Part shown: positions 6,767 through 35,286 of the stretch, one piece after another
Layout: the number at the start of each line of letters is the position of its first letter
Numbering within the stretch: position 1 is the first letter of the stretch
IMG/VR virus record: IMGVR_UViG_3300046536_000176
Location: 1 to 38,638 of that record
Source: a virus
Length of the DNA: 38,638 nucleotides
Reading direction: 5' to 3' (one strand)
Made by a program: the position numbers and the translations under genes
Notes under the pieces: generated by a model
Databases searched by the model: none
What the model was told of the DNA's origin: nothing
Seen by the model: the letters and a program-made list of their open reading frames with translations, nothing else

Positions 6767-7063
6767 ATGACTACTCCCGCCCCCTCCCCGTCCATGGGTG
6801 AGGCGTACGTGCTGGAGAACGCCGAGGGCCACGGAGCCGGACTGGGTCACCTGCCCACCGGCTCCACGGTCGTCGTGGTCGACGTACACCCGGCAGGCAC
6901 CGCCGGTATCGGCCACGCAGGCGAGGACTCCGTCCTGCTTGCCTACGAGTTCGACACCCATGTCCTCACCGACGATGGCGACCACGCGCCGGGCAAGTCC
7001 GTCCGGCTCTTCTCCCTGCACCTGTCTGACTTCGCGCGCATGTTCAAGAAGGTTGATGCCTGA
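6767..7063 (+). CDS. Hypothetical protein (98 aa)
   Basis: Starts at the ATG after AAGGAGAGC, a strong ribosome-binding site. The sequence is beta-rich and Gly/His rich (GHLPTGSTVVVVDVHPAG, later LLAYEFDTHVL), then ends in a helix with MFKKVDA. The hydrophobic VVVV run is too short and too close to charged residues to be a membrane segment. The stop codon shares its last base with the next start (TGATG), so the two genes are probably translationally coupled. No family recognised. A small head or neck protein by position. Confidence 0.65.
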   Translation: MTTPAPSPSMGEAYVLENAEGHGAGLGHLPTGSTVVVVDVHPAGTAGIGHAGEDSVLLAYEFDTHVLTDDGDHAPGKSVRLFSLHLSDFARMFKKVDA

Positions 7064-7482
7064 TGGCCGGTACGAACCCCGTATGGGCTGGTAACGCCCT
7101 GGACCTGCTCACCGGCCGGGCTGTCGCCCTCGCGTCGCCGCGTACGACCTACCTGGCCCTGCTGATTTCCGACCCGACGCAGGAGGACGGCTCCTACGAC
7201 ATCACCGCCCTGCCGGAGGTCTCCACCCCCGGCTACGCGCGGCAGCAGGTCGTGTGGACCGCCCCGTCCGGCGCTCCGATGACCACGGCCAACAACGCGC
7301 TGCTGTTCTTCGGCCCGTTCACCGCAGACATGACCGACTCGGCCACCTTCGCCGCGCTGGTCACCTCCGCGTCCGGCACGACCGGCGACGTGATCTACGC
7401 GTGGCCGATCGACAGCCCGCTCCAGGCGGCGACGAACGAGTCCCTTCAGATCGCCGCTGGCGCGCTGACCCTTAATACCTGA
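7063..7482 (+). CDS. Structural protein of Gp80-like beta fold (139 aa)
   Basis: The pattern TYLALLISDPTQ, later GYARQQVVWTAPSG, then NNALLFFGPFT, then GDVIYAWPIDSP and the end LQIAAGALTLNT is shared by a group of small phage structural proteins. In that group a strand 'lylaLlt.dPt' is followed by 'gYaRq.vtf..ps...nt..v.FgP' and 'a.G.l.fa.GaLtl'. I recall these as Gp80/tail-fibre-like. Here the gene sits in the head-neck cluster, so a decoration or connector role is equally plausible. It overlaps the previous stop by one base. Its last three sense codons are the CTTAATACC nonamer, directly before the TGA. Confidence 0.7.
   Translation: MAGTNPVWAGNALDLLTGRAVALASPRTTYLALLISDPTQEDGSYDITALPEVSTPGYARQQVVWTAPSGAPMTTANNALLFFGPFTADMTDSATFAALVTSASGTTGDVIYAWPIDSPLQAATNESLQIAAGALTLNT
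7471..7479 (+). repeat. CTTAATACC nonamer, copy 2
   Basis: Forms the last three sense codons (Leu-Asn-Thr) of the preceding gene and lies 25 bases before the ATG at 7496. Confidence 0.85.
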
Positions 7483-11734: not shown

Positions 11735-12601
11735 GTGGCTACCGACCTTAATACCGAGGGGTACACCAACCCCCTTGCGAACCCTGGTGCCGCCAACGCG
11801 CAGATCGCTGCGCTTCTGGCCGACGCCGGGGCTCCGGTCGCCAAGCCCGAGATCGCCCTCCCGGCAGGTGGCAATTTCAACCTGCCGGGAGGCTACGTTC
11901 TGGGCAGCGACTACACCTCCGTCCGCTACGACGCCGAGGTCCGCGAACTGACCGGCGCCGACGAGGAAGCACTGACCAAGGCCCGCCAGGCTGGCATCGG
12001 CAAGTACATCTCCACCCTGCTGTCGGCAGGCACCGTCTCCGTGGGGACCGAGGCAGCCAGCCCCCTCCTGCTGTCCAACCTGCTGCTCGGCGACCGGGAC
12101 ATGCTCCTGATGGAGATCCGGCGCGCGACCTACGGCGACGAGATCGTGTGGGACCAGTACACCTGTCCCTGGTGCGGCGAGGAGTTCCGCCTGTCCATCA
12201 CCCTGGACGAGATCCCCGTGCGCCGCCTGGACAACCCGGCCGACCGCATCTTCGAGGTGGAACTGCGCAAGGGCCGCAAGGCTCACGTCCGGCTCCCCGT
12301 CGGAAGCGACCAGGAGGCCATCCTCGCCGTCGCCGACCGTCTCAGCGAGCCCGAGCAGAACACCCTCCTGCTTTCCCGGGTTCTGATTTCCGTGGTCGAG
12401 GCCGACGGAACGGAGAACGCCGTCACGGGTAATCCGGACTTCGCCCGCTCGCTCGGTGTCGTGGACCGCAAGTCGATCCTCGACGCGATTGAGAATAAGC
12501 AGCCCGGCCCCCAATACAATGGGGTGAAGTTCACGCACGATTCGTGCGGGAAGGAGGTCCCCGTCTTCATCCAGGCAGGGGACCTGTTTCAGGGTCTGTA
12601 A
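11735..12601 (+). CDS. Tail assembly chaperone, zinc-ribbon-bearing (zero-frame product)
   Basis: Begins at GTG 11735 after TAGGAG. The 288-residue protein has a disordered N-terminus. A middle domain follows (YVLGSDYTSVRYDAEVRELT, then ADEEALTKARQAGIGKYI and LLLGDRDMLLMEIRRATYGD). This reads like the T4 gp26 / baseplate-hub chaperone family. An inserted zinc ribbon is suggested by CPWC at about residue 145 and HDSC near residue 270. Its position between tube and tape measure is where G/GT-type chaperones lie, and the following reading frame encodes a typical second-frame extension. The natural stop TAA is at 12599-12601. Codons 5-7 are a CTTAATACC copy. Function by synteny and pattern. Confidence 0.78.
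   Translation: MATDLNTEGYTNPLANPGAANAQIAALLADAGAPVAKPEIALPAGGNFNLPGGYVLGSDYTSVRYDAEVRELTGADEEALTKARQAGIGKYISTLLSAGTVSVGTEAASPLLLSNLLLGDRDMLLMEIRRATYGDEIVWDQYTCPWCGEEFRLSITLDEIPVRRLDNPADRIFEVELRKGRKAHVRLPVGSDQEAILAVADRLSEPEQNTLLLSRVLISVVEADGTENAVTGNPDFARSLGVVDRKSILDAIENKQPGPQYNGVKFTHDSCGKEVPVFIQAGDLFQGL
11747..11755 (+). repeat. CTTAATACC nonamer, copy 4
   Basis: Twelve bases after the GTG start of the tail chaperone gene, read as Leu-Asn-Thr (codons 5-7). Confidence 0.85.
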
Positions 12602-12755
12602 CTACTTCGACACGTACTTCGAATACGAGCAACTAGTCGAGCTATCCCCGGCTTGGAGCCTCAGCGAAATTCGCCGGTTGACCGTACGTGAGCGCCTGCA
12701 CTGGGTGAAGTGGTTCACGGCGCAACGCAATAGGCGAGTGGCTGAGGCGGAGTAA
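12528..12755 (+). CDS. Frameshift extension of the tail assembly chaperone (+1 frame)
   Basis: This frame is open from 12528 to the TAA at 12753-12755 but has no ATG, GTG or TTG before the overlap with the upstream gene ends. Past the zero-frame stop it encodes NYFDTYFEYEQLVELSPAWS, then LSEIRRLTVRERLHWVKWF and a charged end. This is a well-formed small helical domain of the kind found as the frameshifted tail of chaperones. Relative to the upstream gene it is +1 (equivalently -2). A ribosome shifting between 12528 and 12599 would give a 339-residue fusion. Its stop overlaps the tape measure start (TAATG), so it is probably translated. A TTG at about 12678 would give only a 25-residue peptide and is unlikely. 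Confidence 0.75.
   Translation, partial: SSRTIRAGRRSPSSSRQGTCFRVCNYFDTYFEYEQLVELSPAWSLSEIRRLTVRERLHWVKWFTAQRNRRVAEAE
12551..12590 (+). promoter_or_regulatory. Candidate +1 programmed frameshift signal
   Basis: Two possible sites are visible. One is AAGGAGGT (12551-12558), a near-perfect anti-16S match, placed two bases before the codon CCC (12560-12562) followed by G, so that slipping one base gives CCG; this resembles the RF2 layout of an internal ribosome-binding sequence just before the shift codon. The other is TTT (12587-12589) followed by C, where slipping one base gives TTC, the preferred Phe codon. TTT is rare in this genome. Confidence 0.5.
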
Positions 12756-15700
12756 TGGCTAACGAAGGTACGGTGGCGGGTCAGGGATCGCTCCTCGGTG
12801 TCAACAAGGCACAGGACGCGATCTCTGACCTCACGAAGAGCATCGCGTCGCTGAGCAAGGAACTGAAGGACGCCGCGTCCAAGTTCAAGTCGGTCGGCAC
12901 GGGTGCAGCCGGTCTCTGGCAGGGATGGAACAGTCACGGCTCCGGGTCCACTTCGGGCGCCCGGGGCTTTGGCATGCTCGCCAACGACATCTGGAACGGC
13001 ACCTCGAACTACGCCCACGGCCGTCCCAACGGTGGCACGGGCGCCCCCGCCACGGCTCCCCGGGCAGGCACGCCGCAGCAGCCCATGACGCGCTCTGCCA
13101 ACGGCGGTGGGGCCACGTTCTCCGGCGCGACCAACCAGGGCGGCGGGGCGGCCAACAACGGCGGCCAGGGCGGCTCTGGCGGCTCCGGCGGTTCCGGTGG
13201 TGCAGGCACCCCGCGTCTGGGCGGAGGCTCGTCGAACAACGGCGGCCGGAGGAGCCCCTACACGCTCAAGAGCGGCCTGAAGGACTTCCACGCCTGGGCC
13301 ACCAAGCAGATGCCCGACCAGGTCGTCATGGAGACCACGGCCTACCAGACCGGCCTGATCTCCTCGCAGTCCAAGGCCGCGAGCCTGAACCAGGGCTTCC
13401 ACAACAACCTCAACGCACAGAGCACGTCCGACGCCGCGTCGGCGTACGGGACGCTGGCCAACTCCACGGCCGGTTCCCCCGGCTCCGCTAGTTTCGGCAA
13501 CGCCTGGAACTACGCCAAGTCCTCCGGCTACCTCACCCCCGGCATATCCGAGGCGCAGCGCGCCCAGGCGATGACCGGCGCGTGGACGGCCTCCTCGTAC
13601 TACGCCAACCAGGCCATCGGCATTCAGACGATCAAGGGCGGCACGCGGCAGACGCCCCGGCAGATCGCCCAGCAGGTCATGCAGCGCTGGCCGCAGTTGA
13701 AGAACGTCAAGAACGCCGACCAGATCCACGACACCCTCAGCGACGGCTCGGCCGTGATGCAGTCGCTGGCGCGGACCCTGCCCGCCGACACCCTCCAGGC
13801 CGTCAAGGCCGAACTGACCGGCATGCTCAACGCCCAGATCAGGGGTGCCTCGCAGCAGCAGTACGTCTCCACGATGAACAAGGCCGCGAGCGGCAACAAG
13901 GACGCCCGCAACCAGTTGAAGAAGTGGAACATCGGCGACTCGACGGCCCAGTCCGTCATGGACCGCGCCGGGACGCTGCGCAACCAGGACGTCAACACCA
14001 ACGAGGCGTTCGCCGACGGCCTGAAGACCGCGACCCGCTACCTCGACAGTTTCTCCACCGCGCTCCAGAAGGTCCTCAAGGCCACGGGAGCGGACAGCGT
14101 CATCGGCTGGGCCGGTGGTGCAGGGTCCATGGTCGGCTCCGCTGTCGGATCCGGCCTAGGCACCATCGGAATGATGCGCGGCCTCGGCTCCATCGGCCGT
14201 CTCGGCGGATTCGGTGGAGGCGGCGGGGGTGGAATGCTCGGTGCTGCTCGCAGCGCCCTCGGTGGCGGCACGGGCGAGGCTGCGGGCTTCGGTGCGCTCG
14301 GAGGTGCACTGGACCTGTCCGGGGCCGCCCTGGGCGCCGCTGGCGGCTTCGGCCTGGCCGCGTGGGGCACGCACCACTTCGGCTCGCAGTTGGCGGACAA
14401 GTACACCAAGAAGGGCAGCAAGGGCAACAAGCTGGCCCACGTCGGCGTGGACGCGGCGACCGGCGCCCTGACGGGTGCTGCGGTCGGCTCCATCGTCCCC
14501 GTCATCGGTACCGGTGTCGGCGCGGCTGTCGGCGGTCTGATCGGTGCAGGTGTCGGCATCTTCGGTGGTGCCGGTGACTCCAACGCCTCGGCCGCCACCG
14601 GCACGGGCAAGTCCGGCGCGGTCGCCACCGGTACGTCCGGCGCGGGCAAGACGGCCGCTGCCGTCATCAAGGTCGCCATGAAGTACCTGGGCGTGAAGTA
14701 CGTGTGGGGTGGCTCGACGCCGAAGGGCTTCGACTGCTCGGGCCTGATGCAGTACTCCTTCCGGCAGATCGGTGTCTCCCTCCCGCGCACGGCGGCCCAG
14801 CAGCAGAAGGCGGGCAAGAAGGTCAAGCTCGGTTCCGAGCGGGCGGGCGACCTGCTGTTCAACGGCGACCCCGCGCACCACGTCGTCATGTGCATCGGTA
14901 ACGGCCGGATCATCGAGGCGCCGCACACCGGGGCCGTGGTCCGCATCCGTGCCTACCGCTCCGGCGAGTTCACCAACGCGGTGCGCATCCTCGGCGCGGT
15001 CGGCAACATGGACGATCTCGCCAGCGACGGCACGGACACCGCAGGTTCGAGCGACAACCGTCTGTCCAACACCGGCTTCGGTGGTGACGTCGGTTCGTAC
15101 GGCTCGATCGAGGAGGCCGACGCCCTCGCGGCCGGTATCGCCTCGGCCGGTTCGGCCAACGTCGGATCCGGTGTCGGCGCCGGGCAGGGCGCGGGGAAGA
15201 GCAACGACGACAACGGGGCTATCCCCGGGTCGATGCCGACCGGCAACCTCAAGGGCTGGATCAAGTCAGCGCTCGGGATCCTGCACCAGGACACGACGTC
15301 GAACGAGAAGTACGTCAACACGATAGCCATGCACGAGTCCGGTGGTAATCCGCACGCGCAGAACAACTGGGACTCGAATGCCAAGGCGGGCCACCCGTCG
15401 AAGGGCATTATGCAAACCATCGACTCCACGTTTAAGGCGTACTCGCTCCCCGGCCACAAGAACATCTGGAATCCCGTCGACAACATCATTGCCGGTGTGC
15501 GCTACGCGGACTCCCGATATGGCTCGCTGGCGAAGGTGCCCGGAATCAAGTCGATGGCGAACGGCGGATCCTACAAGGGATACGCAGTCGGCTCCACGAA
15601 TATCGACGTCGACCAGACCGCCCGCGTACACAAGGGCGAAATGATTATCCCGGCGCACCAGGCGGACGCAATCCGAAAGGCGCTGGCGAGCAATACCCCG

Positions 15701-15886
15701 CTCGCGAGCGGGCTCGGCGGACTTAATACCAAGGGTGGTGCGGCCACCCTCCACTTCCACTCCGGCTCCGTCGTAGTGCAGGTGCAGGGCGCCATGGACC
15801 AGACCTCGGCGCGAGACGCAGCGAAGCAGTTCATGACGGCGCTCGCCGAGGACAACCGGATCAACCTCATCGCGGCAGGAAACTAA
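12755..15886 (+). CDS. Tape measure protein with NlpC/P60 and lytic transglycosylase domains
   Basis: A 1043-residue protein that sets tail length and probably digests the wall during entry. Residues 1-150 are helical then Gly/Ser/Asn rich. About 150-480 is helical, and about 450-630 alternates Gly/Ala-rich helices that may insert in the membrane. An NlpC/P60 peptidase domain spans about 635-750 with Cys661 (FDCSG), His709 (AHHVV; His708 adjacent) and His724 (APHTG). A goose-type/SLT transglycosylase domain spans about 840-950 with Glu861 (MHESGG) and GIMQTIDSTFKAY. The C-terminal 100 residues resemble the tape-measure ends seen in siphoviruses (VHKGEMIIPA). It overlaps its neighbours at both ends (TAATG). 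A nonamer copy lies near the 3' end. Confidence 0.95.
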   Translation: MANEGTVAGQGSLLGVNKAQDAISDLTKSIASLSKELKDAASKFKSVGTGAAGLWQGWNSHGSGSTSGARGFGMLANDIWNGTSNYAHGRPNGGTGAPATAPRAGTPQQPMTRSANGGGATFSGATNQGGGAANNGGQGGSGGSGGSGGAGTPRLGGGSSNNGGRRSPYTLKSGLKDFHAWATKQMPDQVVMETTAYQTGLISSQSKAASLNQGFHNNLNAQSTSDAASAYGTLANSTAGSPGSASFGNAWNYAKSSGYLTPGISEAQRAQAMTGAWTASSYYANQAIGIQTIKGGTRQTPRQIAQQVMQRWPQLKNVKNADQIHDTLSDGSAVMQSLARTLPADTLQAVKAELTGMLNAQIRGASQQQYVSTMNKAASGNKDARNQLKKWNIGDSTAQSVMDRAGTLRNQDVNTNEAFADGLKTATRYLDSFSTALQKVLKATGADSVIGWAGGAGSMVGSAVGSGLGTIGMMRGLGSIGRLGGFGGGGGGGMLGAARSALGGGTGEAAGFGALGGALDLSGAALGAAGGFGLAAWGTHHFGSQLADKYTKKGSKGNKLAHVGVDAATGALTGAAVGSIVPVIGTGVGAAVGGLIGAGVGIFGGAGDSNASAATGTGKSGAVATGTSGAGKTAAAVIKVAMKYLGVKYVWGGSTPKGFDCSGLMQYSFRQIGVSLPRTAAQQQKAGKKVKLGSERAGDLLFNGDPAHHVVMCIGNGRIIEAPHTGAVVRIRAYRSGEFTNAVRILGAVGNMDDLASDGTDTAGSSDNRLSNTGFGGDVGSYGSIEEADALAAGIASAGSANVGSGVGAGQGAGKSNDDNGAIPGSMPTGNLKGWIKSALGILHQDTTSNEKYVNTIAMHESGGNPHAQNNWDSNAKAGHPSKGIMQTIDSTFKAYSLPGHKNIWNPVDNIIAGVRYADSRYGSLAKVPGIKSMANGGSYKGYAVGSTNIDVDQTARVHKGEMIIPAHQADAIRKALASNTPLASGLGGLNTKGGAATLHFHSGSVVVQVQGAMDQTSARDAAKQFMTALAEDNRINLIAAGN
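15722..15730 (+). repeat. CTTAATACC nonamer, copy 5
   Basis: Near the 3' end of the tape measure gene, read as Leu-Asn-Thr, 164 bases before the next start. Confidence 0.85.
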
Positions 15887-16937: not shown

Positions 16938-18081
16938 GCAAGCACCTGTCACCCGCCTGTCGATGGGCAACGACAGGGTCCGCGACCTGATCTCCCGGGT
17001 GGAGGTCCGCGAGGGCTACGGCGTGCACTCGATGGCCATCATCGACGTCACCGCCCCGCCCACGTCCAAGAGCCCCTACAGCGAGCTGACGCCTGTCGTG
17101 CTCGACTACGGCCGCGCCCCGAACGACCTGGTGCGCTGGAACGGGTACGTACACCACTCCAGCGCGCTCGCATCCGCCGACACCCGCAACGTCACCGTGC
17201 GGTACATCTGCATCGGCACCACGCTGCCCATGAACACCCAGCGCACCCGGTCCTGGAAGAACATCTCACCCACGTCGATCGTCCGCCAGGTGGGCCGGGA
17301 GAACGGCCTGCGCACCGTCATCTCCCCATCCGCCCGGCGCCTGACGTACTGGGCCCAGACGGGCCAGTCGGATTTCAAACTGGTCAACGACCTCGCGTCC
17401 GAGACCGGATTCCGTTTCTGGGTGGAGGGCACCACCCTGTACTTCCTCGACCCGAGAGTTCTCCTGCTCGGGCAGAAGCAGCAGGACATCCCGGTGTTCT
17501 CCAAGAACCAGACCCCGGGAACGTACGACACCCTGCGCAGCCTTTCCATCCTCACCGGAACGATGATCCCCCGCAGTAACGGGACGACAGCCACATCGGT
17601 GATATCCGGCCTGGATGCGAAGACCGGAAAGGTAATCAAGGCGTCCTCCACCTCGGACACGGGAATCGGAACGTTCCTGAATTCCATCAGCACCGCTCGG
17701 GCGGTCGACAACTACGCCGACGCGCAGGCTCTTATGGAGGCGCGCACGCTCGCGTCCCGTGGGTGGATCACCATGCAGTCCGAGATCTACGGCACCGCGA
17801 AAGTCGCTCCCGGAACGCTCATCGGAATCTCCGGCAGTTCCGTCGCGGTGGAAAACAAGGGCCGGTGGATGGTGACCGGCACCAAGCACGTCATCAACCG
17901 CGACAAGAGCAACAAGGGGCTGATGTTCACGACGACCGTCGATGCGGAAAGGGACCAGCCCTACGCGGTAACATTCCGGAGCGATGCGAACAAGCGATTC
18001 AAATTCGACACCGTCCCGGCTGTGCTGAGGAACAAGCAGTTCTGGGAATCGAGTCTTCTGGAGGACATCAATGTCGGCTGA
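16930..18081 (+). CDS. Baseplate hub protein, gpD / late control D-like
   Basis: A 383-residue protein using GTG at 16930 (overlap of eight bases with the LysM gene). The N-terminal region forms a beta-barrel (RVRDLISRVEVREGYGVHSM, then VVLDYG and WNGYVHH). The middle section has NISPTSIVRQVGRENGL, then LTYWAQTGQSDFKLVNDLAS and ETGFRFWVEG, the well-known 'q...sdw.fl..la...G..f....g.l.' signature of gpD/gp27/VgrG-type hubs. A C-terminal segment has PGTLIGISGSSVAVENKGRW. It should form the trimeric platform between tube and spike. The next gene, an OB-fold spike, overlaps by 11 bases, the usual partner order. Confidence 0.9.
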   Translation: MSEQAPVTRLSMGNDRVRDLISRVEVREGYGVHSMAIIDVTAPPTSKSPYSELTPVVLDYGRAPNDLVRWNGYVHHSSALASADTRNVTVRYICIGTTLPMNTQRTRSWKNISPTSIVRQVGRENGLRTVISPSARRLTYWAQTGQSDFKLVNDLASETGFRFWVEGTTLYFLDPRVLLLGQKQQDIPVFSKNQTPGTYDTLRSLSILTGTMIPRSNGTTATSVISGLDAKTGKVIKASSTSDTGIGTFLNSISTARAVDNYADAQALMEARTLASRGWITMQSEIYGTAKVAPGTLIGISGSSVAVENKGRWMVTGTKHVINRDKSNKGLMFTTTVDAERDQPYAVTFRSDANKRFKFDTVPAVLRNKQFWESSLLEDINVG

Positions 18082-21000
18082 TCCGGTGCTGGGAATGTAC
18101 CGGGCGAGCGTTGCCAATAACCAGGACCCGCTGAATGAGGCCCGCACCACGCTGCTCATTCCGCAGGTTCTCGGAAACGCCGAAAGCGCCTGGGCCGTGC
18201 CCGCCTCCCCGACCAACACGATCCCGCCGGTCGGGCAGACGGTCTGGGTGCAGTTCTCCGGCGGAGACATCACCAAGCCGGTCTACAGCCCGCTCGGCAT
18301 CAAGGACGTCCAGGACCAGGTGGCCTCCGGCAGCGAGCTGGACTCCCTGCCGCCCAAGGAGCCGACCGCCCTGACTCTGTCTACGGTGCAGTACGTCACC
18401 GACGAGGGAGTCACCCGGGCCCGCGTGACAGCGAGCTGGACCCCGCCGACGGAGAACCAGGACGGGACCGCGCTCAACGACCTGTCCCACTACCTGCTCC
18501 AGACCTCCTACGACAACACCAACTGGAACGGCGGCTTCGTCACCACCGAGGACCTGGTCCTCCTCGACGGGCTTAATACCGGCGTGGCCTTCTACGTGAG
18601 GGTCGCGGCCATCGACACCAGCAACAACCCCTCTCTGTGGGCGACCGCCAACGTCACCACGGCGTCCGCGTCCACCCCGCCTCCGGTGCCCTCCGCGCCG
18701 GGGGTCGTCGGCGTGCTCGGCGGCCTGCGCGTCACCTGGGACGGCCTGGACTCCACTGGCACCGCCATGCCCGCGATCTTCTCCCACGTGCAGGTGCAGC
18801 GCGACACCGACGTGGCCTTCTCCAACCCGGTAGTCGTCGGCTCCCTGCCCGGACCGGACTTCCTGTACGACTCCGTGCAGAACTACGGCGTCGCCTACAA
18901 CTACCGTCTGGTCGCCTACTCCAAGGTCGGCATCGCCTCCGCGCCGTCGGCCGCGCACTCCGACACACCCAAGCAGGCCGGTACCGGGGACATCGCGGCG
19001 AACTCGGTCACCGCCAACCAGATGGCGGCCGGGACGATCACCGCCCAGTCCGGCATCATCGCCTCCATCGACGCGTCCAAGATCACCGTCGGCAAGCTCA
19101 CCGCTGCACAGATCGACGCCACCAACCTCCAGGTGTCCGGCGCCAACGTCACCGGCACGCTGGACGCCAACAACACCAACGTCGTCAACCTGGACGCGGC
19201 GAACATCAAGGCCGGAACCCTGACCGTCGACAAGTTCAGCGCCGGGCTCCAGGGCACCGTAGGCCAGAAGTTCTACGACTTCGGCCAGCAGGCCAGCAAG
19301 TGGAGCAACGGCAACTCCACCGGCACCATGACCACGGTCAGCATCAGCGATGCGGCGTCCGGCGGTACCGTCATGCGCTGCGTCGGATACATCCAGGGCG
19401 CCTACCGGCCGGACATCCTCATCCCCTTCGACCCGGGTGTCACCTACCGCGTCACCTGCCGACTGCGGCAGACCGTAGCCAACGCCGTCACCGGCACCAA
19501 CCAGAACGTCTACATGGGCGTCACCGGCATCGCGTCCGACGGCGTGACGCTGGTCAACTCCACCGGAGCCAACGCCCGCTCCAGCCAGCACTACTGCGCC
19601 GCCACGGCCACCTACATCAACACCGGCTCCGGTTGGCAGACCTTCACCGGCTACATCAAGGGCACGGCCGCGACATCCGACACCGGAGCACACACCAGCC
19701 CGCTCAGCCCGATGCGTCTCCACCAGAACGTGAAGTACATAAGCCCCTGCCTGTACGCCAACTACAACGGCGGCACAGGCACGGTCGAGGTGGATATGTT
19801 CACCATCGAGGTCGTCGAGACCGGCTCGGTCAACTCGGCCAACATCAACCTGGGCAACGTCAACGCCTCACACCTGTCCCTGGGCACCGTCTCCGGCAAC
19901 CTCGTCGCCAACCCCGGCTTCGAAGACGCCTCCCGCGCCGGATGGACCCTGACCCAGAGCGACAGTACGTTGGCCACCACCCAGGCCAAGATCGAGATCG
20001 CTCAGGGTGGATACCCGGCACGCTCCGGCCAGGGAAAGGCCGCCCTGGGCGTGAAGAACACCGGCACAGCGACCATCACCAGCAACGCGTTCCCCGTCAT
20101 CGCAGCCCAGACGTACATGTTCCGGTACTGGTACTACGGCGTCGGGCACCTGCACGTCACCTTCGAGACCAGCCCGGACGGCGTCACCTGGACCGACCAG
20201 ATGGCAGGAGCCAACGACGTCACCTACAACTCCAGCGCGTACACCGAGGACATCTTCGAGATGACCGCGCCGACCGGAGCACTGTGGGGGCGCGTCTCCT
20301 TCCAGCAGTTGAACCCCGGCTCGTACGGCCTGTCCACCACGGCGTTCTCCTACATCTGCGTGGACGACGTCATCGTCATGCAGGAGGGCTACGGCGCCAC
20401 GGACATCTCGGCCGCTGGCGTCCGGCTGTACGGTCCGGACGGCACCCTCGCCACGGAACTGACCACGGCCAACGCCTACGCCACCTTCGCGGGCGGCAAG
20501 GCCAGCATCGACCCCAACGGCGTCGGCACCTTCAACTCCATCTGGACCCCGCAGCGCCCCAGCGGTGCAGCATCCGATGACCCGACCGGGCAGATCTGGT
20601 ACCAGGGTCAGGAACTGGGCTCCCTGTTGTGGAACATGCCGTGGGGCATGGTCACCTACGAGCGGGGCTGGACCCAGAAGCCGACATCCACGACCTACTA
20701 CATGAAGGACTCGCTCAACAACCCGGACGCATCGTTCGGCCTTATCGAGTTGTCCTTCGAGGCTGTCGAGGGTCGCATGTACCGCATCCGGGCCAGGTCC
20801 CAGTTCGACTTCACAGGCGGCGGAAGCGGGCCAGCAGTTTCCGAGTTGGAGAATGCAATCCAGGCGTCCGGCACGACGTCATCCCTGAACGGCTGCACCA
20901 TCCTCACGCCAAACGGGGCCAGCCCCACGGTGTCCGACACGACGCTTGGTCGCAATTTTGGGGTGTCCTACGACGGCGCGGGCAGCGACTTCACCTGTGA

Positions 21001-21739
21001 CGTGGAGGCCATCCTCGTCTGCTCCACTGACCCGGGCGGCCTGTACGGGGCCACCACGGGCCTCGCGCCGGGTACTCACCGCATCCTGTGGGTCGGCCGT
21101 ATCCACGCTGGCCCGGCCACGGGATGGGGCCTGCGCAGTTACTCTCCAGCCCAGTCCTCGGACTTCTACGTCGAGGACATCGGTCCGGCCGTTCACGAGG
21201 GCGGTGTCTACAACACGGGTGGCCAGGTCGTCACGGCCACGCAGACCTACACCAAGACGTACAACGCGGTGTGGTCCCGCCGGTTCGGAAACGCCGGATA
21301 CACCGACGGCACCGTGTATCAGGGCTACTACTCCAGCACCTGGGGCACGCAGAAGTCGATGATCTACTTCGGCACCCAGCCGTACACCGACATGGGTTCT
21401 ACGGCGAAGGTCTCCAAGGTCGAGGTCTACCTCTACAACCAGCACTGGTACTACAACGGCGGCGGTACGGCGCACATCGGTGCATTCACCGGCACGACCG
21501 AGCCGACGTCGTTCTCCGGCAGCGGAGTGAACCTCACGGTTTCCTCCTGGCCCGTCGGCGCCGGAAAGTGGGTGACCCTTCCGTCGTCCTGGAATTCAAC
21601 CTGGAACGCGAGCACCCCGTACCGTGGAATTACGCTGGGTGCGGATCTCGGCTCCAGTACCGACAAGACCTACTACGGATACTTCGCTGGCGTAGGGGAT
21701 TCCCACCCTCCGCAGTTGCGTATCACCTACACCAAGTAG
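18071..21739 (+). CDS. Baseplate spike OB-fold fused to FN3, fibre repeats and adhesion domains (1222 aa)
   Basis: Residues about 1-85 are a gp5/gpV-type OB fold (ARTTLLIPQVLGNAESAWAV, later PPVGQTVWVQFSGGDITKPV). Two fibronectin-III-like domains follow at about 95-300. A threonine/alanine/isoleucine repeat stretch at about 310-400 (SVTANQMAAGTITAQSGIIA and similar 'agtIta..I.a..v.a' repeats) is typical of trimeric fibre shafts. Next come beta-sandwich carbohydrate-binding-like domains (about 400-560 and 610-780), a further beta-domain (about 830-1040), and a C-terminal DNRLRE-like domain from about 1050. Normal spikes are a few hundred residues, so this is a spike-adhesin fusion. It carries a nonamer copy at 18572. 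Confidence 0.85.
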   Translation: MSADPVLGMYRASVANNQDPLNEARTTLLIPQVLGNAESAWAVPASPTNTIPPVGQTVWVQFSGGDITKPVYSPLGIKDVQDQVASGSELDSLPPKEPTALTLSTVQYVTDEGVTRARVTASWTPPTENQDGTALNDLSHYLLQTSYDNTNWNGGFVTTEDLVLLDGLNTGVAFYVRVAAIDTSNNPSLWATANVTTASASTPPPVPSAPGVVGVLGGLRVTWDGLDSTGTAMPAIFSHVQVQRDTDVAFSNPVVVGSLPGPDFLYDSVQNYGVAYNYRLVAYSKVGIASAPSAAHSDTPKQAGTGDIAANSVTANQMAAGTITAQSGIIASIDASKITVGKLTAAQIDATNLQVSGANVTGTLDANNTNVVNLDAANIKAGTLTVDKFSAGLQGTVGQKFYDFGQQASKWSNGNSTGTMTTVSISDAASGGTVMRCVGYIQGAYRPDILIPFDPGVTYRVTCRLRQTVANAVTGTNQNVYMGVTGIASDGVTLVNSTGANARSSQHYCAATATYINTGSGWQTFTGYIKGTAATSDTGAHTSPLSPMRLHQNVKYISPCLYANYNGGTGTVEVDMFTIEVVETGSVNSANINLGNVNASHLSLGTVSGNLVANPGFEDASRAGWTLTQSDSTLATTQAKIEIAQGGYPARSGQGKAALGVKNTGTATITSNAFPVIAAQTYMFRYWYYGVGHLHVTFETSPDGVTWTDQMAGANDVTYNSSAYTEDIFEMTAPTGALWGRVSFQQLNPGSYGLSTTAFSYICVDDVIVMQEGYGATDISAAGVRLYGPDGTLATELTTANAYATFAGGKASIDPNGVGTFNSIWTPQRPSGAASDDPTGQIWYQGQELGSLLWNMPWGMVTYERGWTQKPTSTTYYMKDSLNNPDASFGLIELSFEAVEGRMYRIRARSQFDFTGGGSGPAVSELENAIQASGTTSSLNGCTILTPNGASPTVSDTTLGRNFGVSYDGAGSDFTCDVEAILVCSTDPGGLYGATTGLAPGTHRILWVGRIHAGPATGWGLRSYSPAQSSDFYVEDIGPAVHEGGVYNTGGQVVTATQTYTKTYNAVWSRRFGNAGYTDGTVYQGYYSSTWGTQKSMIYFGTQPYTDMGSTAKVSKVEVYLYNQHWYYNGGGTAHIGAFTGTTEPTSFSGSGVNLTVSSWPVGAGKWVTLPSSWNSTWNASTPYRGITLGADLGSSTDKTYYGYFAGVGDSHPPQLRITYTK
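18572..18580 (+). repeat. CTTAATACC nonamer, copy 6
   Basis: Inside the first FN3-like region of the spike-adhesin gene, read as Leu-Asn-Thr, far from any start codon. Confidence 0.85.
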
Positions 21740-27857: not shown

Positions 27858-28487
27858 ATGCTCTCCAACTACGCTGACGCGGGTGCGCTCGTCGTCGGCC
27901 TGGTCCTGCCCGCCGTCGTGGCAGTGTTCACCAAGCCGTCGACCAACTCCACCGTCAAGGGCTTCGCGCACGCCGTCCTGGCCGTCGCTACCGGCTCCCT
28001 GGCCGTCTACAAGCAGGACCCCTCGAACTTCGTGTGGGCGCCCGCCGTCATCGCGTCGTTCCTGGCCTGGCTGTCCGGCACCGCGTTCTACCACTCCTTG
28101 CTGAAGAAGTACTCCTGGTTCCAGACCGTCCAGAACCTGTTCGTGAAGGAGGCCGAGGTCGTCGTCGAGAGGGTGCTTAATACCTCCGACACCGGCCAGA
28201 TCGCCCAGTACTTCGCGCTGGCCCAGGAGGCCGAGGAGTCCGAGGACGCGGCGGGCATCGTCAACGACTTCCCCTTGAGCACCGACGTGATCGAGTCCGG
28301 CGTGGAAGAGGTCGTCAAGGCGGCCGAGAAGATCCCCGTCGTCGGCGCGGTCATCGGGAGCGCGGACCCCGTCGCCGTCCCGGCCCTCGTCCAGGCCGTG
28401 GAGGAAGTTGCGGCGCCGGTCGTCGAGAACTCCACCCCGGCCGTCACTCCGCAGCCGACCGGCGCCCTGGGCCCGAGGTCGATCTGA
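27858..28487 (+). CDS. Holin-like membrane protein with long cytoplasmic tail (209 aa)
   Basis: AAAGGAACACC precedes the ATG. Hydrophobic segments lie at about residues 9-25 (LVVGLVLPAVVAVF), 35-50 (FAHAVLAVATGSLAVY) and 58-74 (APAVIASFLAWLSGTAFY), followed by a charged turn KKYSW. The rest (from about 95) is a soluble acidic, Ala/Val/Glu-rich tail. Location right behind the tail genes and before the terminator fits a holin. The missing piece is an endolysin: none is beside it, although the tape measure has hydrolase domains. The nonamer copy at 28176 falls in the tail region. A non-lytic membrane role is the alternative. Confidence 0.65.
   Translation: MLSNYADAGALVVGLVLPAVVAVFTKPSTNSTVKGFAHAVLAVATGSLAVYKQDPSNFVWAPAVIASFLAWLSGTAFYHSLLKKYSWFQTVQNLFVKEAEVVVERVLNTSDTGQIAQYFALAQEAEESEDAAGIVNDFPLSTDVIESGVEEVVKAAEKIPVVGAVIGSADPVAVPALVQAVEEVAAPVVENSTPAVTPQPTGALGPRSI
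28176..28184 (+). repeat. CTTAATACC nonamer, copy 7
   Basis: Inside the holin-like gene, read as Leu-Asn-Thr. The nearest upstream copy is 9.6 kb away, the widest gap between copies. Confidence 0.85.
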
Positions 28488-28838: not shown

Positions 28839-30143
28839 ATGGCTAAGGTCTTCCTTGTTGCCGATCACGGCAGCGACCACCACGAACCTGGAGCAGACTT
28901 GAGCAAGCAGCCCATCACCCTGGCCTTCGCTGGTTCCGCCGACACCTCCCCGGAGAACGTCCAGGCCCTGCTGAACGACTGGCTCGGCTTCGGCGACGAG
29001 GACAAGGACGGCTTCTTCGAGCCCAGCGACCGCGAGATCAACCTGATCTTCCCGATCACCCGCGAGCACCTGTCCGACGGCCTGGAGGCGGTCCTCGCCT
29101 GGGCCGAGAAGGCGGACCTCCCCTACGTCGCGGTCGCCGACAACAAGCGCAGCCGGGCCACCGAGTCCTTCCTCTCGGACGCGGAGGAGGTCGTCCACGC
29201 CGCCAACGTCACCGCCGGGGTCGTCGACCTGCTCAAGAAGGCCGACAGCGTCGGCGACGAGGTCCACCTGATCCTGCTGTGGGGCGACGAGGGCAGCGAG
29301 CAGGCCGAACTCCTCCTGGACGCGGCCGAGCAGGCGGGCATCAAGGCCAAGGACCTGACGGCGGGGCTGGACGACATCTCGTTCGGCGAGCAGCCGCAGG
29401 CCGAGGAGCCCGAGCCGGAGCCCGAGCCGGAGCCCGAGCCGGAGGAGCCGAAGCGCGGTCGCCGTCGCGGTCGCCGCCAGGAGCCGGTCGAGGTCGAGCC
29501 GGAGGAGGAGCCGCTGACCGAGGACGAGCCCGAGGCGCCGAATGAGGAGCCGAAGGAGGAGCCGAAGCGCGGCCGTCGCGGCCGTCGCCAGGCCGAGCCG
29601 GAGCCGGAGGAGCACCCGGTCGAGCAGGACATCCGCGAGCAGGAGGAGGACGAGGACCTGGACCTGGAGCAGCAGATCAACCGCGCTGCGCAGAAGGTCC
29701 AGCGGGAGACCAAGCCGGTCTCCGACAAGGAGATCGACCTCATCCTGATCGGCAACGCTTTGGAGGGTGCCTACAACGCCTTCCGTCTGGAGGACGAGCG
29801 CAACGCCGTCATCAACCAGGCCGAGGTGCGGCACCGTCCGCTGACGGAACTGCTGGCCAAGGCGCTTAATATCGTGGCCGACGCGGTCCACGACGCCGAG
29901 GCCGCGAAGCAGGACGACCCGGCCGCCACGGCCGAGGAGAAGTCCGAGGAGCCGGAGGAGCAGACCTCCGGGCGCCGTCGCCGTGGCCGTCCGCGTGACG
30001 AGTCCAAGACGTTCGCCTTCCTGGTCGACGACGAGGGCAACTACACCCGTCGCGGCCGTGGCCGGATCCCGGCCGGATCGAAGGTCGTCCACCTGACCCG
30101 GGCGGAGATCGAGGAGAAGGGCCTCGAACTCGACTCGGAGTGA
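28839..30143 (+). CDS. Acidic/basic repeat protein with AT-hook-like end (434 aa)
   Basis: I take ATG 28839 (AKVFLVADHGSDHHEPG) rather than the TTG at 28821, which sits in the terminator tail. The N-terminal 190 residues look like a Rossmann-type alpha/beta domain (YVAVADNKRSRATESFLSDA, then VHLILLWGDEGSEQAELLLD). A disordered Glu/Pro-rich region alternates with basic clusters GRRRGRR and GRRGRR. A helical domain (about 280-360) follows, then GRRRRGRPRDES, an AT-hook-like core, and a small C-terminal beta unit. It may bind DNA or organise it; this is inferred. It is probably the first gene of the early block. Nonamer variant CTTAATATC lies at 29865. Confidence 0.75.
   Translation: MAKVFLVADHGSDHHEPGADLSKQPITLAFAGSADTSPENVQALLNDWLGFGDEDKDGFFEPSDREINLIFPITREHLSDGLEAVLAWAEKADLPYVAVADNKRSRATESFLSDAEEVVHAANVTAGVVDLLKKADSVGDEVHLILLWGDEGSEQAELLLDAAEQAGIKAKDLTAGLDDISFGEQPQAEEPEPEPEPEPEPEEPKRGRRRGRRQEPVEVEPEEEPLTEDEPEAPNEEPKEEPKRGRRGRRQAEPEPEEHPVEQDIREQEEDEDLDLEQQINRAAQKVQRETKPVSDKEIDLILIGNALEGAYNAFRLEDERNAVINQAEVRHRPLTELLAKALNIVADAVHDAEAAKQDDPAATAEEKSEEPEEQTSGRRRRGRPRDESKTFAFLVDDEGNYTRRGRGRIPAGSKVVHLTRAEIEEKGLELDSE
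29865..29873 (+). repeat. CTTAATATC nonamer variant, copy 8
   Basis: Inside the acidic/basic repeat protein gene, read as Leu-Asn-Ile, in the same codon phase as all other copies. Confidence 0.8.
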
Positions 30144-30148
30144 GTAAC

Positions 30149-30207
30149 GCAAAAGCCCCCGGCGCTGAAGAGGTTCGAGACCTCAATTCACTGCCGGGGG
30201 CTTTTGC
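30149..30207 (+). terminator. Long-stem terminator with a nested T-arm-like hairpin
   Basis: GCAAAAGCCCCCGGC (30149-30163) pairs over 15 bp with 30193-30207. Inside the loop, GAGGT (30170-30174) pairs with ACCTC (30180-30184). Read as GG-TTCGAGA-CC, that inner piece has the loop sequence of a tRNA T-arm. The right arm ends in CTTTTGC, giving a modest U-run. It separates the first early gene from the replication genes. Confidence 0.75.
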
Positions 30208-30257: not shown

Positions 30258-30305
30258 ATGTCGAGCCGACTTAATATCAACGGCGGACGGGGAGCCGCCG
30301 AGTGA
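30258..30305 (+). CDS. Leader minigene 1 (15 codons) before the replication initiator
   Basis: ATG at 30258 with GGGAAGAA upstream begins a 15-residue peptide, MSSRLNINGGRGAAE. Its TGA (30303-30305) overlaps the GTG start of the next gene (30302-30304) in a GTGA. The motif CTTAATATC supplies codons 5-7. Behind it, CGGCGG (30281-30286) pairs with CCGCCG (30295-30300), and the loop holds GGGGAG, the ribosome-binding site for the next gene. Translating the minigene would melt that hairpin. A coupling or leader role is inferred from this layout, which recurs at 35242. No protein-level function can be claimed. Confidence 0.6.
   Translation: MSSRLNINGGRGAAE
30270..30278 (+). repeat. CTTAATATC nonamer variant, copy 9
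   Basis: In leader minigene 1, read as Leu-Asn-Ile, starting exactly 32 bases before the next gene's GTG. Confidence 0.85.
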
Positions 30306-31309
30306 GCATCCTGATCATGTCGGAGGTGTTCACGAAGTCCGACACCCGCCTGGCCACGCGCCTCGTTCTGCTCGCGCTGGCGGACGCGGCCAACGACTCC
30401 CACCGCATGTGCTGGGAGTCCGTCGACACCATCGCGGCCAAGGCCCGGGTCTCCCGGCGGCAGTGCTTCACCGCGCTGTCGACGCTGGAGGACCGGCGCA
30501 TCGTCGAGCACGTCCCGGACGAGGAGAAGCCCGCCGAGGCGGAGCGGTACAAGTCTGTGGTCCGCAGGATCCTGCCGGTCTCGGAATGGCTCCCGGAGCC
30601 GACCAAGGGTGCAGAATTTGCACCCCCCTCTGAGGGTGCAGAATCCGCACAGGTGTCGAATTTTTCACCCAACCCCAATATCCAAGTTAGAGATATAGAA
30701 GAGACTACGTCTCTTCCACCGCGCCGGTCGGCACGGTCCAGTCCTGGCGAAGCCGAGGAGATCTCTACGAAGCCGGGTGCTCGTGGCTGGGGAGCGGTAG
30801 TGGCCCCCAAGCGTGGCGGCCGGAAGAAGACCCGGAAGCAGCAGGCCGAGGAAGCCGCCCTGGCGGAGAAGGAACTCGACCCGGCCTACGTCGTAGCCCA
30901 GGTCCTCGGCGGAGATGACTCGGAAACGGGCCAGGATGACCGTCTCCCGGCTTCGGACGACGACCTGGCCCCTCCGGTCCGGCGACCTCGTGAGAAGCGC
31001 TCCAGGAGGCCGTCGGAGGAACTGGCCGAGTTCTTCGACCGGCGGGCCCAGGAGGTAGGTCACCCGGTCCCCGGCGCCACCAACCTCGGAGCCCTCACCG
31101 GTAACTTCGGACGGTGGATGCGCGAGGGCTTGGAACGGGAGGCTGTCCGACAGATGATCATCACCTACTGGTCGGCGTCCTGGAACCGGTCGGAGAACGT
31201 ACCGGCCTGGAAGGACTTCCTCGCCGCTCGCGGTCTGCTGACGGAGCGGCTGGGCAAGGCCGAGAACACGATGGAGAAGCACCGGCACGACGAGTCCTAC
31301 TGGGACTGA
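30302..31309 (+). CDS. Replication initiator (helix-turn-helix protein, lambda O-like organisation)
   Basis: A 335-residue protein starting at GTG 30302 (an ATG at 30317 is an alternative). Residues about 1-90 form a winged helix (LVLLALADAANDSHRMCWES, then VDTIAAKARVSRRQCFTALS, TLEDRRIVEHV), the type found in phage replication organisers. The middle is a low-complexity linker whose DNA carries iteron-like repeats and an AT-rich tract (30607-30716). A basic segment (KRGGRKKTRKQQ) and a C-terminal helical domain (about 230-325, ending WKDFLAARGLLTERLGK) follow. The next gene is a DnaC-like loader, as P follows O in lambda. It probably binds the origin inside its own gene and recruits the loader and helicase. 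Confidence 0.8.
   Translation: MSILIMSEVFTKSDTRLATRLVLLALADAANDSHRMCWESVDTIAAKARVSRRQCFTALSTLEDRRIVEHVPDEEKPAEAERYKSVVRRILPVSEWLPEPTKGAEFAPPSEGAESAQVSNFSPNPNIQVRDIEETTSLPPRRSARSSPGEAEEISTKPGARGWGAVVAPKRGGRKKTRKQQAEEAALAEKELDPAYVVAQVLGGDDSETGQDDRLPASDDDLAPPVRRPREKRSRRPSEELAEFFDRRAQEVGHPVPGATNLGALTGNFGRWMREGLEREAVRQMIITYWSASWNRSENVPAWKDFLAARGLLTERLGKAENTMEKHRHDESYWD
30607..30670 (+). repeat. Iteron-like repeats inside the initiator gene
   Basis: GGGTGCAGAATTTGCACC (30607-30624) recurs as GGGTGCAGAATCCGCAC (30634-30650), 27 bases apart. A degenerate third copy, GGTGTCGAATTTTTCACC, starts at 30652. The first copy is itself palindromic: GGGTGCA, five bases, TGCACCC. In protein they read KGAEFAPPSEGAESA. 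Confidence 0.7.
30659..30716 (+). other. AT-rich tract and palindrome, candidate replication origin
   Basis: Directly after the iteron-like repeats the sequence turns A/T-rich for about 40 bases, unlike the rest of the genome. It then ends in a perfect hairpin: GAAGAGAC (30698-30705), TAC, GTCTCTTC (30709-30716). Iterons plus an AT-rich unwinding stretch inside an initiator gene is the lambda ori layout. Confidence 0.55.
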
Positions 31310-31446: not shown

Positions 31447-32103
31447 ATGGCGACCGACCCCCGGGTCCACGCCCTGCGGCTCAAGGAGTACGGCATCCCC
31501 GCCCACTACCGTCACCTGCGGCTTAATACCGTGGCGGACACCGAAGAGTCCGCCGCCTGCCGTACCTGGCTCGACAACCTGCGGGACCACTACGTCACCG
31601 ACAAGCGGCCCCTGACGGAGTACCCCGAGGACTGGTCCCAGATCGGCAAGGGCCTGCTGCTGGTCGGCCCGCCCGGCACCGGCAAGACCACCCTCGCCAC
31701 GGCCACGCTGCTGGAGGTCTACTACGTCCACCGGCTCCCGGTGCACTGGCTGGCCTACGCCGACTTCGTGAAGGACTCCATCGAGAAGATGGGCCTCCAG
31801 GACCGCAGCGAGCCCGAGGCCGTCGCCCGGTGGTGGGAGATCCAGGACAAGATCGTGGCGGCCGAGAAGGCCCCCGTCCTCGTGCTGGACGACGTCGGCA
31901 AGGAGCACCGGACCAAGACCGGCTACGCCGAGGGACTGCTGGACACCCTGCTGCGCCAGCGGCACCGCGAGGCCCGGCCCACGATCGTCACCTCGAACCT
32001 CCCGCCCAGGGAGTGGGGCGCGGTCTACAACCCCACGATGGGTTCCTTCATCCAGCAGGCATTCACGCACGTCAAGTTGATCGGGAAGGACCGCCGTGGC
32101 TGA
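31447..32103 (+). CDS. DnaC-like AAA+ helicase loader
   Basis: A 218-residue ATPase that should load the replicative helicase at the origin. The Walker A motif GPPGTGKTT is at residues 74-82 and Walker B VLVLDDVG at about 144-151. The sensor region TIVTSNLPPREW with the following arginine-containing segment matches DnaC/IstB-type loaders. The N-terminal 65 residues vary in this family and would contact helicase or initiator. ATG 31447 is preceded by GAGGAGG. It stands between the initiator and the helicase. A nonamer copy (31522) encodes LNT at residues 26-28. It overlaps the next gene by eight bases. Confidence 0.9.
   Translation: MATDPRVHALRLKEYGIPAHYRHLRLNTVADTEESAACRTWLDNLRDHYVTDKRPLTEYPEDWSQIGKGLLLVGPPGTGKTTLATATLLEVYYVHRLPVHWLAYADFVKDSIEKMGLQDRSEPEAVARWWEIQDKIVAAEKAPVLVLDDVGKEHRTKTGYAEGLLDTLLRQRHREARPTIVTSNLPPREWGAVYNPTMGSFIQQAFTHVKLIGKDRRG
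31522..31530 (+). repeat. CTTAATACC nonamer, copy 10
   Basis: 75 bases after the helicase loader start codon, read as Leu-Asn-Thr within RLNT. Confidence 0.85.
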
Positions 32104-32320
32104 GCAACTGACCCTTCCGTTCGAGGACGAGGTTTTGGTGATTCTCTACAAACGCGAGGCCGAGTCCCGGGCCCTCCCGGCGTACTGGGACGCGCTGGAG
32201 TACACCGTCCGCGTCCGTGCCAAGCACCTCGGCTTCGTGATCAAGCGCTCCCGGAGGGACGCCTGGTACGAGGACGGGCGACTTAATATCCAGCTCCGCG
32301 TAGAGGCGGAGCGCACCTGA
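32096..32320 (+). CDS. Hypothetical protein (74 aa)
   Basis: Starts at GTG 32096, overlapping the loader gene by eight bases, and its TGA overlaps the next ATG by one base. The protein is helical at first (AEQLTLPFEDEVLVILYKRE) and then basic (VRVRAKHLGFVIKRSRRDAW). It ends with YEDGRLNIQLRVEAERT, a beta-strand pair. It may be a small nucleic-acid-binding accessory of the replisome, but I know no family. A nonamer variant lies just before its end. Codon use matches the neighbours except at the nonamer. Confidence 0.65.
   Translation: MAEQLTLPFEDEVLVILYKREAESRALPAYWDALEYTVRVRAKHLGFVIKRSRRDAWYEDGRLNIQLRVEAERT
32282..32290 (+). repeat. CTTAATATC nonamer variant, copy 11
   Basis: Near the end of the 74-residue gene, read as Leu-Asn-Ile, 38 bases before the next start codon. 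Confidence 0.85.
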
Positions 32321-32778
32321 TGCAGGGCGGCGACATCTCCAACGAGGTCGTCCCCCGCCTGGTCATCGCGTACGAAGGCATGCTCGGCGTCCTGCCGGAG
32401 AAGCCCGAGAAGTACGTCACCGAGCTGGTCGCCCGCAAGTTCGGACGCCGCGCTCGGCAGGCCAAGCGAACCGTGGACGCGTACGAGATCAACGACGCCC
32501 TGGCCCGGGTCATCTGGGACACCGTCTGGCGCTTCAAGTACTCGGTCGACGTCGTCACCTACCTCGGGGACGACGCTGTCGAGCCGCTGGAGGCCCGCCT
32601 GGACGCCGAGGGGCTTCCCATCGGCCGGGTGTGGGCCACGACCCCTGAGCGGCTGGCACGGCGCCTCCCATACATGCCGGACGTCGCCGCGATCTTCGAC
32701 AACGAACACCACCTGATCTACGGCAGCAAGGGCCGCGCCCTGCCTGCCAACCCCACCACGCTGATCGGAGCACTGTAA
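32320..32778 (+). CDS. Hypothetical protein (152 aa) between loader and helicase
   Basis: Starts at ATG 32320 (TGATG overlap). The N-terminal half is helical (VVPRLVIAYEGMLGVLPEKP, then EKYVTELVARKFGRRARQAK). The middle has NDALARVIWDTVWRFKYSVD and VVTYLGDDAVEPLEARLDAE. The rest, PIGRVWATTPERLARRLPYM, then AAIFDNEHHLIYGSKG, ends in a short hydrophobic stretch. I do not recognise the family. VVTYLGDDAVEPLEARLD and VAAIFDN hint at a nucleotide-handling alpha/beta fold such as a HAD-like pattern, but the key motifs are not complete enough to claim it. The conserved gene position suggests a replication accessory. Confidence 0.65.
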   Translation: MQGGDISNEVVPRLVIAYEGMLGVLPEKPEKYVTELVARKFGRRARQAKRTVDAYEINDALARVIWDTVWRFKYSVDVVTYLGDDAVEPLEARLDAEGLPIGRVWATTPERLARRLPYMPDVAAIFDNEHHLIYGSKGRALPANPTTLIGAL

Positions 32779-35241: not shown

Positions 35242-35286
35242 ATGACCCGGCTTAATACCTGCCCCCGCAAGGGGGACCACCGATGA
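35242..35286 (+). CDS. Leader minigene 2 (14 codons) before the HNH-like gene
   Basis: ATG 35242 after AGGAG (35231-35235, spacing six bases) encodes MTRLNTCPRKGDHR; the TGA overlaps the next ATG (ATGA, 35283-35286). CTTAATACC supplies codons 4-6. Immediately after it a CCCCC-GCAA-GGGGG hairpin (35262-35275) hides GGGGGA, the ribosome-binding site for the next gene. The layout repeats that of the minigene at 30258: motif 32 bases before the next start, hairpin, overlap. A leader or coupling function is inferred; the peptide itself may have none. Confidence 0.65.
   Translation: MTRLNTCPRKGDHR
35251..35259 (+). repeat. CTTAATACC nonamer, copy 12
   Basis: In leader minigene 2, read as Leu-Asn-Thr, exactly 32 bases before the next ATG. 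Confidence 0.85.
35262..35275 (+). promoter_or_regulatory. GNRA-tetraloop hairpin masking a ribosome-binding site
   Basis: CCCCC (35262-35266) and GGGGG (35271-35275) close the tetraloop GCAA. The G-run is the only plausible ribosome-binding site for the ATG at 35283 (7 bases away), so it is hidden unless the minigene's ribosome opens the hairpin. Confidence 0.75.

Follow-up and report, generated by a model that had tools for sequence, protein, structure and literature searches.

A minigene ahead of the replication initiator gene

The window, the whole stretch of DNA analysed here, corresponds to a single virus record of IMG/VR, 38,638 bases long, with genes for terminase, portal, major head protein, tail sheath and baseplate, followed by genes for a replication initiation O-like protein, a DnaC-like loader and DnaB and SNF2 helicases. 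Streptomyces phage BRock is the closest named phage found by the major head protein (74%). The O-like protein (HTH_36; phrog_391 match, 5.6e-11) is encoded at positions 30302-31309 of the + strand. Its GTG start codon (30302-30304) overlaps the TGA (30303-30305) of a 15-codon minigene that begins with an ATG at 30258 and codes for MSSRLNINGGRGAAE. This minigene (30258-30305, + strand) carries in frame 0 the nonamer CTTAATATC (CTT-AAT-ATC; 30270-30278, + strand), called the word below. The hairpin CGGCGG-ACGGGGAG-CCGCCG follows at 30281-30300 of the + strand; its stem, which begins 11 nt downstream of the word's first base, pairs 6-bp arms (CGGCGG at 30281-30286, CCGCCG at 30295-30300) around a loop of 8 nt. 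A second minigene of the + strand, MTRLNTCPRKGDHR (35242-35286), has the word in the form CTTAATACC at 35251-35259, followed by a GCAA-loop hairpin, and its TGA overlaps an ATG at 35283.

An inverted repeat (CAAAAGCCCCCGGC at 30150-30163, GCCGGGGGCTTTTG at 30193-30206) with an inner GAGGT/ACCTC hairpin separates the gene at 28839-30143 from the first minigene. It looks like a terminator, so that the minigene may open a new transcript.

The first-pass annotation had reported a 15-codon ORF holding the nonamer and ending inside the initiator start codon, and both its coordinates and the TGA/GTG overlap are confirmed. It had also placed the ribosome-binding sequence of the initiator gene in the hairpin, masked by it. 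The hairpin is real, but the Shine-Dalgarno-like GGGGAG sits in the 8-nt loop and not in the stem, and masking is not a conserved property: GGAG is in the loop in the window and absent from the loop of locus L019.

The layout itself, which that annotation had proposed to look for in relatives, is kept in 19 (window included) of the 24 viral loci that have the region; one of the others has the word without an in-frame start, four have no word, and a further locus, outside the 24, lacks the minigene region. Constant over the 19 loci are the ATG, the in-frame word and the overlapping stop/start (GTGA, TTGA or ATGA), and a fold after the word is kept in most of them (weak in L019, -5.0). The encoded peptides vary (MSSRLNINGGRGAAE, MAVSLHTYCFPGAAR, MPLPLHTYRLGRAGN, MSSRLNINHFLAVTE, MSSRLNINGGVAE), and a conserved peptide outside the word, as expected of a regulatory leader or attenuator, was not found over these loci.

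The minigene had been read as an ordinary leader, or a device for translational coupling, specific to the initiator gene. A translatable minigene in a layout suited to coupling is indeed present, and the NTGA overlap kept in 19 of 24 loci speaks for it. A dedicated leader of replication initiation leaves unexplained the 12 further copies in the window and those in unrelated genes (tail, sheath, helicase-loader, DNA-polymerase and many others), which lie mostly mid-gene. As a full account this reading is highly improbable. Since the ATG, the word and the stop/start overlap are kept in 19 of 24 loci while the peptide changes, coupling to the initiator is plausible, yet the feature is a global one, and the leader idea is plausibly part of something larger.

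Copies of the word, their stems and two dialects

CTTAATAYC occurs 13 times on the + strand of the window and 0 times on the - strand. Allowing up to one mismatch, the nonamer has 14 matches against 1.69 in shuffled sequences, and none of 100 shuffles reaches 14. All copies outside the two minigenes are likewise on the + strand. In the structural region, CTTAATACC followed by a hairpin is found at codon 3 of gene 4333-5193 (4339-4347), in the tail sheath gene (10151-10159), at codon 5 of gene 11735-12601 (11747-11755) and in gene 12755-15886, which has minor tail and tape-measure matches (15722-15730). The same form has a weak stem at the end of gene 7063-7482, where LNT is followed by TGA (7471-7479), an irregular strong fold in tail gene 18071-21739 (18572-18580) and no good stem in gene 27858-28487 (28176-28184). 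CTTAATATC recurs with a short stem in gene 28839-30143 (29865-29873) and with a hairpin near the end of gene 32096-32320 (32282-32290), where the stem is just before gene 32320-32778. Two more copies of CTTAATACC with a hairpin are in the DnaC-like helicase loader gene 31447-32103 (31522-31530) and in a gene truncated where the contig stops (38578-38586). In a simple perfect-stem search, the score averages 15.4 after the 13 copies and 8.6 at random positions (resampling, 0 of 20,000), with values of 11 or less at four of the copies (7471, 18572, 28176 and 29865). The copies of the word in the window and their stems are not due to chance.

Among the 24 viral loci gathered by the initiator protein, 16 have CTTAATAYC, on the + strand only, and 8 have 0 copies. 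In these 8, CTTCATAC is strongly over-represented on the + strand, and several of its copies stand at matching distances from the initiator in the 5 loci with positions compared. The comparison was extended to 23 whole or large records, the window included, which fall into two dialects: 11 use CTT-AAT-AY (Leu-Asn, dialect A) and 12 use CTT-CAT-AY (Leu-His, dialect B). Relatives of 72-110 kb have 22-40 copies each. Altogether the 23 records hold 547 copies, one off-dialect copy (G019 57754) included, with 479 in same-strand called genes and 68 outside called genes; many of these records are close relatives and some may overlap, and the 479 copies, which are not as many independent events, correspond to 75 distinct homologous positions, the distinct sites by sequence being 437.

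CTT-AAT occurs 247 times in dialect A and is followed by A(C/T)N in 244; CTT-CAT occurs 289 times in dialect B and is followed by A(C/T)N in 281. Off-dialect dicodons amount to 0 CTT-AAT in B records and 2 CTT-CAT in A records, and no enriched use of CTTGATAY or CTTTATAY, which would be third and fourth dialects, was seen. In protein alignments the 75 site positions divide into 32 common to both dialects, 20 found only in A and 23 only in B, 16 of the latter varying within B. At the 32 shared positions Asn and His are swapped between the dialects, across unrelated proteins. Phage-encoded tRNAs were considered as an explanation and set aside: Asn, Leu, Phe and Pro tRNAs are found in two records only, one per dialect, and none in the other pieces checked. 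The two records have them as a four-tRNA cluster (Pro, Phe, Leu-CAA, Asn; G004, L046 7113-8279, and G007, L038 246-1451). ARAGORN also calls a tRNA-Phe antisense in a tail gene of the window (19198-19273, - strand), likely a false call.

The stem has a preferred position. Among 166 distinct sites examined, 162 were scored; the most frequent start of the stem, seen at 64 sites, is 2 nt beyond the nonamer and thus 11 nt from the first base of CTT, and at 44 more sites it starts 0-1 nt beyond the nonamer, where it may extend outwards. At 37 positions where the word is polymorphic, the stem score is 8.8 with the word (n=154) and 3.5 without it (n=211), against a background of 3.6 (p=1e-12, Mann-Whitney; 0.0016, site-wise Wilcoxon over the 37 positions), being higher with the word at 23 positions, lower at 10 and tied at 4. 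A strong stem follows 47% of the 437 distinct sites against 8% of background. Pairwise compensation between relatives is weak (72 compensatory changes, 51 G-U, 85 A-C, 303 broken), and our claim is therefore limited to the presence of a stem and does not extend to its conservation.

Of 526 in-gene core sites, the 10 opening codons of genes have 72, against 25 expected, and the 15 closing codons have 81, against 38; most sites are mid-gene. Even spacing along the genome was not found; copies are random or clumped, and the longest word-free gap measures 15-18.7 kb in all 9 records of about 76 kb or more. In the gap of record G018 (72.3-87.6 kb), the 8 genes tested are all without known function, two of them matching DUF families.

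The phage word resembles the DNA uptake sequences of Neisseria and Haemophilus, which are also genome-wide short words with dialects; unlike it, these are not known to be tied to the sense strand, the reading frame and a stem.

CTT is a classic +1 slip codon, as in prfB and Ty1. The word, with its heptamer-like CTT-N core and a stem some 5 nt beyond the A-site codon, could accordingly be taken for a signal of programmed ribosomal frameshifting, in which the stem would stimulate a slip at CTT. The most frequent distance of the stem from the P-site codon is indeed that of frameshift stimulators, and passages of PMC7282821 place the stems of the dnaX and HIV frameshift and pausing signals 11-12 nt from that codon. 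Unlike these signals, the word is not confined to a single recoding gene but is present in dozens of unrelated genes per genome, mostly mid-gene, with no clear sign of an alternative-frame product; nor would frameshifting lead one to expect two dialects. No pattern of early stops was found downstream of the word in the other frames, which are somewhat more open than in the control, with median distances to the first stop of 43 against 33 and 85 against 60 codons (n=305). Frameshifting appears to us very doubtful.

The word is locked to the reading frame

Over the 23 records, every one of the 479 copies that lie in a called gene of the same strand is in frame 0. Genes were called by our own codon-model script trained on the same records, and a preference of the caller for word-bearing frames could have raised these counts, but most sites are in long, high-scoring ORFs. 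No copy runs antisense to a called gene, and the 8 found on the reverse strand all lie in or beside genes of that strand. Orientation thus follows genes locally, and together with the frame lock this led us to set aside a primase, nicking or Chi-like DNA signal.

Arrays of this kind evoke the stoperators of cluster A mycobacteriophages, where a repressor binds a word in double-stranded DNA and stops transcription. In two reports (PMC6550527, PMC9283540) these are described as short asymmetric sites, tens of them in each genome, that point along transcription and have a consensus that varies by phage group. The phage word matches this description in copy number, asymmetry, single orientation relative to transcription and group-dependent consensus, and a gene of repressor type (HTH_31, DUF5753) was identified. 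A DNA site would presumably be indifferent to reading frame, whereas all 479 copies are in frame 0, including those of dialect B, where the other frames hold no stop; the DNA reading also leaves unexplained the stem tied to the word and the ATG minigenes that supply it outside genes. We regard it as unlikely.

Another reading takes the word as a nut-like or other RNA element, acting in antitermination or RNA binding without translation, frame 0 being only a consequence of codon constraint. The 7-nt core is in frame 0 in 244 of 244 cases in dialect A and 281 of 281 in dialect B. In dialect A one of the other frames gives a TAA stop and the other gives TTA, a codon that is nearly absent (0-0.05 per 1000), so that codon rules alone could force frame 0. 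New sites also often arise at existing Leu-Asn-Thr or Leu-His-Thr peptides, and the commonest 9-mers at homologous positions without the word include CTGCACACC (18, A records) and CTGAACACC (9, B records). Dialect B is free of this constraint, as neither of its other frames contains a stop. The word nevertheless occupies 281 of the 316 frame-0 places where Leu-His-(Thr/Ile/Met) is coded CTN-CAY-AYN (a comparison of use and not a pure mutation rate, the 316 including word-born sites), and 0 of the 24 and 61 places where synonymous changes could produce it in the other two frames (0/85). An element that acts untranslated would, moreover, need no in-frame ATG outside genes. Among 51 distinct copies outside called genes, 21 have an ATG within 10 codons in the frame of the word, against 0 and 2 in the other frames. 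Many of the remaining ones have an in-frame GTG or TTG or are at record ends, and some may lie in genes missed by the caller. An untranslated element is, on balance, rather unlikely.

That the word is read in frame is well supported at the level of sequence. The extragenic ATG minigenes, that of the initiator included, look like devices for getting the word translated.

A HicA-like candidate reader and a proposed mechanism

The two dialects were compared for 130 protein families, and the widest gap between A and B is that of a small HicA-like protein (69-97 aa; 4 A and 5 B members), with identities of 85% within A, 82% within B and 40% between them, without overlap. A B member matches Pfam HicA_toxin (PF07927) at 5e-5 and 23.7 bits, under the cutoff of 27; a score above the gathering value was not obtained, the member of phage G042 scoring 18.2 bits and the A member tested and the member of G031 giving no match. 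The predicted fold, of the mRNA-interferase / dsRNA-binding type, is helix, three strands, helix (H-E-E-E-H, alpha-beta3-alpha; mean pLDDT 71.8). Foldseek against the PDB gives 1whz as best match (probability 0.97), with several HicA chains among the best, all at E > 0.05. An Asn-His pair is invariant in the 8 aligned proteins.

The gene ends in the word of its dialect in all 5 B members and in 1 of 4 A members. The other 3 A members end in Leu-Asn-Leu, and the only 3 CTT-AAT-CTC of the A records fit these. In record G018 it is about 1.4 kb from the repressor-like HTH_31/DUF5753 gene, and an integrase is encoded in the same record. The HicA-like profile was found in 10 of 28 records, namely 9 dialect records and G031, which we take to be a prophage of Terracoccus sp.; it is missing in 8 fragmentary dialect records, 7 other phage relatives and 3 host genomes. 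The protein is also encoded by phages G042 and G053. The profile has 0 matches in 295 Streptomyces genomes, and two members searched against named phages gave no match.

In the lineages tested, this gene goes together with in-frame words that begin with CTT. With one gene caller, a dicodon beginning with CTT is enriched in frame in 7 of 7 HicA-positive records tested, from 16.8- to 132-fold: 57- to 92-fold in 4 dialect records, 132-fold in G031 (CTT-CAT, 14 copies, with a weak stem of 6.1 against 3.9), 27.7-fold in G042 (CTT-CTA, 35 copies, no stem) and 16.8-fold in G053. In the latter, ATT-CAT comes first (35-fold, 7 copies) and CTT-CAT second (9 copies, A next in 8), and all 8 in-gene copies of the core CTTCATA are in frame 0, one more copy being antisense. 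In three HicA-negative relatives, all of similar G+C, no dicodon exceeds 10.5-fold and none of the top four starts with CTT. A cruder gene caller, the only one applied to the HicA-negative records G033 and G036, ranks a CTT dicodon first in 4 of 7 HicA-positive records, with a weaker contrast, and failed on the known positive G015. The presence pattern of the HicA-like protein is that of 8 of 208 conserved query proteins, which make up about six families, its own and that of an Lsr2-like protein included, so that we consider the HicA-like protein the best candidate for a reader but not the sole one.

A precedent for action in phase with codons is E. coli HicA, which, according to PMC8546651, cuts strongly before the first position of codons, a phasing that made the authors question its independence of the ribosome. 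We privilege the hypothesis, to which we give a probability of about one half, that the minigene carries one copy of a genome-wide, translation-dependent tag of phage mRNA, read by a trans-acting phage protein for which the HicA-like protein is the best candidate. The tag would consist of the three codons CTT-NAT-A(C/T)N and of a stem that typically begins 11 nt downstream of the C of CTT. Once CTT occupies the P site of a ribosome and NAT its A site, the stem would reach the mRNA entry and hinder binding of the A-site tRNA, keeping the phage-specific codon in an open A site. There it could be read by the trans-acting protein, possibly the HicA-like protein coded in the repressor region of relatives, which, by analogy with E. 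coli HicA, would cleave directly before NAT, or else would hold the ribosome, the transcript being silenced or processed. A cut at CTT^NAT would require the word in frame and would meet the base that distinguishes the dialects (A or C) just after the cleaved bond. The minigene would make ribosomes cross the tag shortly before they reach the initiator gene, to which the stop/start overlap would then pass them.

In this codon-phased action on mRNA the proposed reading resembles that of the RelE family and of E. coli HicA. Known toxins of this kind cleave a large part of the transcriptome, at weak motifs; in the phage, the target word and the stem are built into its own genes. The purpose could be, in the manner of stoperators (PMC6550527), to silence lytic genes in the lysogen, together with those of superinfecting phages of the same dialect, or to process mRNAs at defined times. 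The first option can be pushed further, to immunity at the level of translation: the in-frame word would serve as a password displayed by the pausing hairpin, and the HicA-like nuclease would cut the transcripts displaying it, so that the prophage stays silent and the mRNA of same-dialect superinfectors is destroyed. A and B would then be immunity types, and a switch of password would drag dozens of genes through a concerted Asn/His replacement. This elaborate form of the hypothesis is tentative, and we would give it rather less than even chances.

A word of this type would represent a genetic signal whose reading takes place on the ribosome, neither on DNA nor on naked RNA. If the HicA-like protein is its reader, an orphan HicA fold would have gained a self-directed regulatory job, phages would have an RNA-level counterpart of repressor stoperators, and the system would offer a direct test of the need of HicA enzymes for the ribosome. 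No report of such a signal was found among the papers listed from the open-licence PMC literature, where the letter strings of the word appear, among the matches listed, only in papers unrelated by title.

The Lsr2-like protein, encoded at 94926-95297 in G018, has homologues in G031, G042 and G053. G042 (L287-L291) has a strong preference for T-ending codons ahead of CTA (CTT-CTA 35, GAT-CTA 21), without stems, which may reflect a codon-pair bias or a word of a third kind.
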